Shown piece after piece: positions 41,303 to 42,165 of a stretch of 64,000 nucleotides of DNA. The translations under genes were made by a program, and so were the position numbers. The first letter of the stretch is position 1. Every line of letters starts with the position of its first letter. The notes beneath the pieces were generated by a model. The model was given only the letters and a program-made list of their open reading frames with translations, did no database searches and was not told the origin of the DNA. The DNA is taken from assembly GCF_010119975.1 (NCBI RefSeq), contig NZ_CP048222.1, positions 8,036,501 to 8,100,500 of the forward strand. The letters are read 5' to 3'. This DNA comes from Rhodocytophaga rosea. GTDB lineage: Bacteria; Bacteroidota; Bacteroidia; Cytophagales; 172606-1.

Positions 41303-41515
41303 TTAGTCTGTTTCATCCAGAAAGAAGATCTGCTCAACAGGCTTGTTGAAAATTCTGGCAATTTTAAGGGCTAAAATGGTAGAAGGAACATACTTATTAC
41401 TTTCCATGGCATTGATCGTTTGCCTGGATACCTGAATGCGTTCTGCCAGTTCCGCCTGAGTAATATTGATTTCTGCCCGTTCTACCCTGATTCTATTCCG
41501 CATCTCAGAAAGCAT
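41303..41515 (-). CDS. XRE-family HTH regulator (70 aa)
   Basis: A single Cro/CI-type HTH, with NITQAELAERIQVSRQTINA followed by MESNKYVPSTILALKIA. This short type (about 65-70 residues, ending IEEIFF-like) typically pairs with a small membrane protein. Its start overlaps the stop of the membrane gene at 41505 by 11 bp, so both are read from the promoter at 42001-42031. A start at the ATG four codons in is also possible. Confidence 0.92.
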   Translation of the reverse strand: MLSEMRNRIRVERAEINITQAELAERIQVSRQTINAMESNKYVPSTILALKIARIFNKPVEQIFFLDETD

Positions 41516-41975
41516 TTACTTTGTTTTTACTTTCGAAAGAAGGTTTAATATATAATATGAAGTTAAAACGGATGATAAAAAACAACAGAACAGTAAACAA
41601 GTTAAAAGTCATAACGGTCAGAAAGTCGGTTCCATAAAAGAATACCAGCGACAACAATACCAAAAATGAATTAATATAAACGCCCCATTGTAATGACTCC
41701 AGGCGTGTTTTGGTCACCCATTCATCTTCTATTTTTTCTTTAGAGAAGGCTACCAGATTTAACCCAATGATGAGTAAAACGCCTAATAATTCGTTGGTGA
41801 AATTTTCATACTCGCCTAGGAACAAATCTGCGTTAGATTTACTTCGGATATGAAATTCAAGAAAGCTAAATTCCTGGCCATTGAGTATATATAATAAGCC
41901 AATAAGGAGGGCAGGAATTGTAATTAACCAGCCGATACGTTTTAAATAATGTGGAAATAAAAATCTGGGTTGCAT
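41505..41975 (-). CDS. Four-helix membrane protein paired with an XRE regulator
   Basis: 156 residues with four hydrophobic segments (WLITIPALLIGLLYILNG, ELLGVLLIIGLNLVAF, INSFLVLLSLVFFYG and MTFNLFTVLLFFIIRF). Membrane-protein/XRE pairs with overlapping genes are common in Firmicutes and Bacteroidota, but their role is mostly unknown. It is first in the operon, and its promoter carries three regularly spaced operator-like repeats. I cannot assign a function. Confidence 0.75.
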   Translation of the reverse strand: MQPRFLFPHYLKRIGWLITIPALLIGLLYILNGQEFSFLEFHIRSKSNADLFLGEYENFTNELLGVLLIIGLNLVAFSKEKIEDEWVTKTRLESLQWGVYINSFLVLLSLVFFYGTDFLTVMTFNLFTVLLFFIIRFNFILYIKPSFESKNKVNAF

Positions 41976-42000: not shown

Positions 42001-42031
42001 CAAATGTAAAGTATGCTTTACTTAATAGCAA
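42001..42031 (-). promoter_or_regulatory. Bacteroidota-type promoter of the membrane/XRE operon
   Basis: On the minus strand, TTG at 42031-42029, a 20-base spacer, then TACATTTG at 42008-42001, a good TAnnTTTG match. The start codon is at 41975. Two of the three operator repeats overlap this promoter. Confidence 0.7.
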
Positions 42032-42063
42032 GTGTATTTTACAAAAATGAAAGTATGTTTTAC
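42009..42063. promoter_or_regulatory. Three operator-like repeats with exact 21-bp period
   Basis: aagtatgctttac at 42009-42021, aagtgtattttac at 42030-42042 and aagtatgttttac at 42051-42063. The first lies within a short palindrome (gtaaag-tatg-ctttac). The 21-bp spacing puts all three on the same face of the helix. They are the likely autoregulatory sites of the XRE protein. Confidence 0.75.
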
Positions 42064-42131
42064 ATAATTTGTATGAGCGGAATCCTGTTTATGTAGAAGC
42101 TTAAAAAAGTAGGACGAAAGTATGCTAAAGA

Positions 42132-42165
42132 AGAAAAAAGCCCGGATGAATGATTCATCCGGGCT
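42132..42165 (-). terminator. Intrinsic terminator of tRNA-Gly(CCC)
   Basis: On the minus strand a GC-rich stem (gcccggatga with tcatccgggc, arms 42155-42164 and 42140-42149), tight loop, then ttttttctt. It starts directly after the tRNA's encoded CCA. Confidence 0.88.

Follow-up and report, generated by a model that had tools for sequence, protein, structure and literature searches.

A predicted 21-bp operator array overlapping the promoter of a membrane protein/XRE operon in Rhodocytophaga rosea, with counterparts across Bacteroidota

Three short and similar repeats lie in front of a small operon in Rhodocytophaga rosea, and the question is what they bind and why they are so evenly spaced. 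The window, i.e. the whole stretch of DNA that was analysed, is 64,000 nucleotides long. A preliminary description had reported three 13-mers with an exact 21-bp period, and they are found just where it put them, AAGTATGCTTTAC at 42009, AAGTGTATTTTAC at 42030 and AAGTATGTTTTAC at 42051, with both intervals being 21 bp. The repeat unit could be refined to an 18-bp palindrome with the consensus TGTMAARTWWRYTTKACA, which starts 4 bp ahead of each 13-mer (at 42005, 42026 and 42047) and has the 13-mer as its core. With a PWM trained on the upstream regions of 48 relatives, the window excluded, the predicted core operator TGTAAAGTATGCTTTACT (42005..42022; no strand is assigned to any of the three) scores 21.0, the highest value in the whole 64-kb window, and overlaps the -7 box of a putative promoter. 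The second predicted operator (42026..42043, score 10.5) is located 21 bp upstream of the core and contains the -33 TTG, and the third (42047..42064, score 9.6) follows after another 21 bp, 42 bp upstream of the core. These two outer sites are weak, and comparable single sites occur elsewhere in the window (12.1, 11.2, 9.8 and 9.5); scores of at least 9 are reached at seven positions in the 64 kb, three of which are the array sites, and these form the sole +21/+21 triple. The 13-mer consensus with up to two mismatches has 21 matches in the window versus 14.2 +/- 3.8 in shuffled sequences, and 21 was reached in 6 of 100 shuffles. It thus has no clear window-wide enrichment, and the signal lies in the clustering and phasing. 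A fourth look-alike of the repeat near 42118 was rejected, with a PWM score of -6.5.

The predicted operators precede, as had been proposed, a two-gene operon on the minus strand that encodes a membrane protein followed by a 70-residue XRE protein. The membrane protein (41505..41975, 156 aa) has four helices in the model and no Pfam match, and its gene is overlapped by 11 bp by that of the XRE protein (41303..41515), a CylR2-like HTH_3 protein that is the proposed binder of the operators. The upstream neighbour on the same strand is a tRNA-Gly gene (42240-42165), and between it and the operators there is a terminator-like hairpin (42139..42165, minus strand) with a 12-pair stem and a T run, the only one found in the region versus 0.7 +/- 0.8 expected from shuffles. 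As such a hairpin follows the tRNA gene, the operon probably depends on a separate promoter. The -33 element of the Bacteroidota promoter is TTG, and the minus strand carries a TTG at 42031-42029 that is separated by 20 nucleotides from TACATTTG at 42008-42001, so that the combination spans the first two repeats in the way that had been described. The latter element is of the type TAnnTTTG, which PMC10309648 gives as the Bacteroidetes promoter. The stretch 42031-42001 is a predicted promoter with the arrangement of the primary Bacteroidota type, in which a TTG precedes TAnnTTTG by about 20 nt; the same pattern with N19-21 occurs five times in the window when both strands are counted.

The XRE protein matches Pfam HTH_3 with an E value of 6e-14 and has short modelled strands at residues 4-7 and 64-67, which together with its length within 65-70 aa place it with the CylR2-like XRE proteins (PbsX family). 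In its recognition stretch VSRQTIN the residues Val29, Arg31, Gln32, Thr33 and Asn35 are invariant in an alignment of 29 members. PADLOC returned 15 HTH-bearing models that match the protein (best HTH_VI, E 3e-11), and these were set aside as reflecting the shared HTH fold. For the membrane protein of the window, Pfam, NCBIfam and PADLOC gave nothing usable and no match to a toxin family, and a fold search with its model found no PDB match below E 1; its 29 relatives match 14 Pfam families with one member each (best E 8e-4). Asp84-Glu85, situated between model helices two and three, is invariant in the 29 aligned members. Neither protein has a paralogue in the 8.98-Mb genome, where each matches itself only.

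The preliminary description had tied the meaning of the repeats to their conservation, and they are indeed kept in a genome of the same genus (G004) with gaps of 21 and 21 bp and scores of 22.5, 14.1 and a weak 6.1. The 21-bp array is found again in other members of the order and in Bacteroidota outside it. The membrane protein is present in 57 of 291 genomes of the order, the own genome included (58 matches), and 50 of the 58 matches were fetched into a first set; of the eight left out, three entered later through an operator search. In 49 of these 50 loci the XRE gene follows the membrane gene on the same strand, in one case 410 bp away. De novo expectation-maximisation on 48 of the upstream regions, without the window, returned the palindrome TGTAAAGTATACTTTACA, and at a lenient threshold 43 of the 73 gaps under 60 bp in the 50 loci are exactly 21 bp. 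A separate collection with named organisms holds at least 586 relatives of the XRE protein, the best 80 of which we take from their titles and names to be Bacteroidota, apart from L091 (titled uncultured bacterium) and L082 (titled Bacteroidetes/Chlorobi group). Scanned with the same motif, these 80 show a spacing of 21 bp in 84 of 101 gaps. Examples are Flavobacterium cauense, Kordia algicida and Pedobacter metabolipauper with one gap of 21 each, Chitinophaga rhizosphaerae (21, 21), Mucilaginibacter oryzae (20, 21), Spirosoma sordidisoli (21, 25) and Rufibacter psychrotolerans (20, 20). Counter-examples are Bacteroides ihuae with one site, and L086, L095, L106 and L120 with none above a score of 8, L095 and L106 being short.

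After removal of six loci from places already used, the pooled set comprised 155 loci, of which 146 were non-redundant (seven near-copies and two loci of less than 100 bases were dropped). Of these 46 belong to the motif training set, one is the window, and 99 are from outside the first set. Two or more sites are found in 129 of the 146 loci, versus 0.1 per round in 20 rounds of dinucleotide-preserving shuffling, and the 200 gaps are distributed as 157 of 21 bp, 20 of 20 bp, four of 22 bp, 11 of 25-26 bp and eight others. The 99 loci outside the training set behave in the same way, with two or more sites in 84 and 105 of 128 gaps being 21 bp. When the surroundings of the best site are profiled in 138 loci, scores above 5 are found at +21 in 61% and at -21 in 49%, and in no more than 9% at the other tabulated offsets; the main peaks have z values of 10.8 (+21) and 9.6 (-21), the minor ones of 4.6 (+26) and 3.9 (+20), and the 5-bp offsets reflect an overlap of the motif with itself. 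Fewer than two sites are found in 17 of the 146 loci, and several diverged XRE proteins (45-54% identity) have one site only, indicating that the array is not obligatory. Two variants of the arrangement can be described. In six loci (L013, L017, L018, L027, L029 and L047) a downstream site lies 25 bp from its neighbour, off the helical phase, leaving about 5 bases between its end and the start codon, and upstream of the membrane gene in L039 the outer sites appear by eye as inverted copies around the core, so that about 70 bp make up one near-perfect palindrome.

An overlap with a predicted promoter is also seen in most of these loci. A TAnnTTTG-like -7 box is overlapped by a site in 110 of the 146 loci, and in the other 36 there is no site with a recognisable -7 box. 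As these core sites were picked through the -7 box, the T and A at motif positions 14-15 are present in 100% by construction and are uninformative. In only 72 of the 110 loci does the -7 site outscore the other sites of its cluster. The TTG is located at N20 from the -7 box in 69, at N19 in 14 and at N21 in three of the 110 loci (86 within N19-21), and the gap from the core to the upstream site is 21 bp in 75 of 94 cases. When the two are compared locus by locus, a gap of 21 goes with N20 in 59 loci, 20 with N19 in 11 and 22 with N21 in three; none is discordant among these gaps, and 17 are without a TTG. With the -7 box inside one site and the -33 TTG usually in the preceding one, the operator period and the promoter spacing are thus locked together. 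At motif position 14 a G is carried by 75 of the 94 upstream sites, by 3 of the 15 second-upstream sites and by 14 of the 45 downstream sites, indicating that the choice of base there largely, but not exclusively, reflects the promoter.

Which protein should recognize the palindromes is indicated by the loci in which the XRE gene is missing. Among 47 loci fetched from a phylum-wide search with the membrane protein, including two places fetched twice and six loci of the first set, a site with a score of at least 14.2 is present in all 37 that have an XRE gene, and in 31 of these there are two sites within 60 bp, versus none of the 10 without XRE, where the best single sites range from -3.9 to 14.3 (the latter in L188). 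Of the loci L149-L178, 26 have an XRE gene, and in each of them the best site precedes the membrane gene. A search of the 291 genomes for exact operators found 54 places in 52 genomes versus 8 genomes for a reversed control pattern, and 37 of the places are in loci with the XRE family of the window, 16 are not and one was not fetched; some of the 16 are on short contigs, and an XRE gene could lie beyond the contig end. In these operator-first loci two sites 20-22 bp apart are found in 17 of 24 with XRE and in 0 of 16 without. The sites also persist when the gene partner differs. The membrane partners in L214, L216 and L225 cannot be aligned to the window family (probability below 2% in profile comparison), while the diverged partner in L209 can (97%), and in L240 there is no membrane gene between the operator and the XRE gene. 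Together this indicates that the operator follows the XRE protein. A conserved palindrome that lies over the predicted promoter and goes with the XRE gene is in accordance with the autoregulation by this protein that had been suggested.

The genes accompanying the XRE gene vary in several ways. In Mucilaginibacter and Pedobacter (L071, L085, L086, L112 and L115) the membrane gene before it encodes about 300 aa with 5-7 predicted helices and resembles a fusion of two copies of the membrane domain. In 9 of 10 loci checked by eye, most of them in the family labelled f19, a second membrane-like gene is located ahead of the first, with the operators before it. In L103, a rumen Bacteroidia MAG, a 410-aa lipoprotein-like gene (256-1488) with a C-terminus that by eye is thioredoxin-like replaces the four-helix protein; the XRE gene is at 1501, and an operator pair with a gap of 21 is located in front. 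The unalignable partners in L185, L186, L214, L216 and L225 and the window family share an acidic DE motif after a hydrophobic stretch, with the variants EDE, DER, DDE and DEL. In hhalign comparisons of L216 and L225 the sole paired stretch contains this motif, at a level that is not significant. The motif could be a point of contact with the XRE protein.

We put the probability at roughly 80% that the palindromes are operators of the XRE protein, in a same-face array of period 21 that doubles as the promoter of its own operon, with autorepression and with the membrane partner as sensor or anti-repressor. As predictions, the operator, its period, the promoter overlap and the link to the XRE gene are supported by comparison of sequences. 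We infer the binding, repression rather than activation, the cooperativity and the role of the membrane protein. The three 18-bp palindromes should be operators for the XRE protein of the operon downstream, each taken up by one dimer. With the -7 element in the core operator and the -33 element in the next, binding of the whole array would occlude the promoter and so repress the operon. With a period of 21 bp the dimers would lie on one helix face, and since the -33 and -7 elements are the same distance apart, the array would be promoter and operator together; adjacent dimers probably bind cooperatively, by which the weak outer sites could work. The membrane protein, made from the same mRNA, most likely senses an envelope signal and, in the manner proposed for CylR1/CylR2, holds back the XRE protein or sets it free, a role that is assigned by analogy with CylR1. 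The operon would then be self-contained as a switch, and no further target stands out in its own genome.

The 21-bp period could also merely mirror the fixed distance between the -33 and -7 elements, with no cooperative or same-face binding, which we consider possible but doubtful. The operator gap and the TTG spacing do change together wherever the TTG is present, as such an origin of the period would have it, but 21 bp is also the gap in 15 of 15 second-upstream and in 35 of 45 downstream sites, and the third site of the window is itself outside the promoter pair. The case for same-face and probably cooperative binding, as against a spacing imposed by the promoter, rests mainly on the sites without a promoter element, most of which keep the 21 bp, and this lends support to the same-face arrangement put forward in the preliminary description. 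The downstream site is found at 25-26 bp, off the same helix face, in 5 of the 45 loci. Activation of the operon by the XRE protein, alone or combined with repression, is quite unlikely; a second upstream site, in a position that activators can use, is present in 15 of the 110 core-site loci including the window, but in 110 of 146 loci the -7 box lies under a site, as the -33 element usually does too, and at such positions a block of the polymerase would be expected.

A small overlapping bicistron with operators that look autoregulatory and a patchy spread (57 of 291 genomes in the order) would also suit a toxin-antitoxin-like module, in which a membrane toxin is paired with a DNA-binding antitoxin that represses the operon, and the XRE protein matches antitoxin HTH models (Y4mF/HipB-like, HigA) below the cut-off. 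We regard this as unlikely, given that the membrane protein of the window has no toxin family match, that a weak match to SpoIISA (E 0.027) appears in just one of 29 relatives, and that the XRE family is paired also with unalignable membrane proteins and once with the lipoprotein-like gene of L103. Binding of the repeats by a regulator other than the XRE protein is highly improbable. The XRE protein as the binder is a prediction from sequence, but the array goes with its gene and is absent from the 10 membrane loci that have none, the operators found blindly are in XRE loci at 37 of 54 places, and the operator is unchanged when the partner gene differs.

The own genome was searched for further targets with two forms of the motif. 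The 14-mer with one mismatch has 75 matches versus 63 for the reversed control pattern and the 18-mer with two mismatches 61 versus 73, i.e. no excess in either case, although sites of the low strength of the two outer operators would escape both patterns. With one mismatch the window core is the only place in the genome that matches the 18-mer. With neither form above control, we propose no regulon in the own genome, and strong further targets are not apparent.

In a wider reading, for which we see an even chance, these operons would be a phylum-wide Bacteroidota class of split membrane-to-promoter switches, in which a CylR2-like XRE protein is combined with exchangeable membrane partners, the half-sites are the -33 and -7 elements under one code for period and spacing, and only the own operon is controlled, the membrane protein being both sensor and output. 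The component parts are of known kinds, and what may be new is an array of period 21 fused to the promoter throughout the phylum, together with a Bacteroidota operator for this group of XRE proteins. In the open-access literature neither the operator nor the XRE/membrane pair was found described in Bacteroidota and six literal spellings of the palindrome were absent, which is weak evidence of absence as most subscription papers are outside this scope. A search of the AbiE paper PMC7319586 found no spacing terms, and one of PMC7239866 for CylR2 found nothing on operators. For small XRE regulators, which form a widespread group, the results supply a predicted DNA target, and they open a genetic route to the uncharacterised membrane proteins paired with them. 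The operator can also serve to identify additional members where the membrane protein itself would not be recognised. With operator and promoter fused, nature would offer here an unusually clear example of identical bases being read both by a regulator and by RNA polymerase.

XRE genes next to genes for small membrane proteins are also found in Halalkalicoccus (L185, recorded as DUF2178), Paraclostridium (L180, recorded as DUF3169) and Leptolinea (L186); the Pfam DUF2178 matches of L185 and L186 fall below the cut-off. Eight plasmid loci outside Bacteroidota were scanned, too few for claims beyond that phylum, and related palindromes are seen in those of Leptolinea, Paraclostridium and Priestia. 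No site was found in the other five, three of them haloarchaeal and one each from Deinococcus and Peribacillus, a weak test in that some of the scanned regions are inside a neighbouring gene. The Leptolinea plasmid (Chloroflexota) has two sites of the same consensus, 42 bp apart, ahead of its XRE gene and the small membrane gene, a hint that the operator could predate Bacteroidota.

The known system that the operon resembles is CylR1/CylR2 of Enterococcus faecalis, in which CylR2 binds an inverted repeat. By sequence and fold the top PDB matches of the XRE protein are DR_2454 and CylR2, the closest solved structure being DR_2454 of Deinococcus radiodurans (9k3w, named as PbsX family) with 58-59% identity, and the CylR2 fold (1utx) is matched with a Foldseek TM of 0.87 and 48% identity. 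In both systems the XRE protein is encoded with a small membrane protein, here in the same operon. According to the part of PMC3709268 that was available, CylR2 binds at PL, a promoter that overlaps with that of the two regulators themselves, and CylR1 is a suspected membrane protein that is required for induction by an unknown mechanism; that part does not mention a phased array of sites. The CylR system has a divergent target operon, whereas the upstream neighbour here is the tRNA-Gly gene on the same strand. DNA binding is coupled to the membrane also in transmembrane transcription regulators of the BcrR type, as described in PMC10269533. In regulators of this type the HTH and the membrane helices are joined in one polypeptide, whereas the operon of R. 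rosea has two overlapping genes and a soluble XRE protein.
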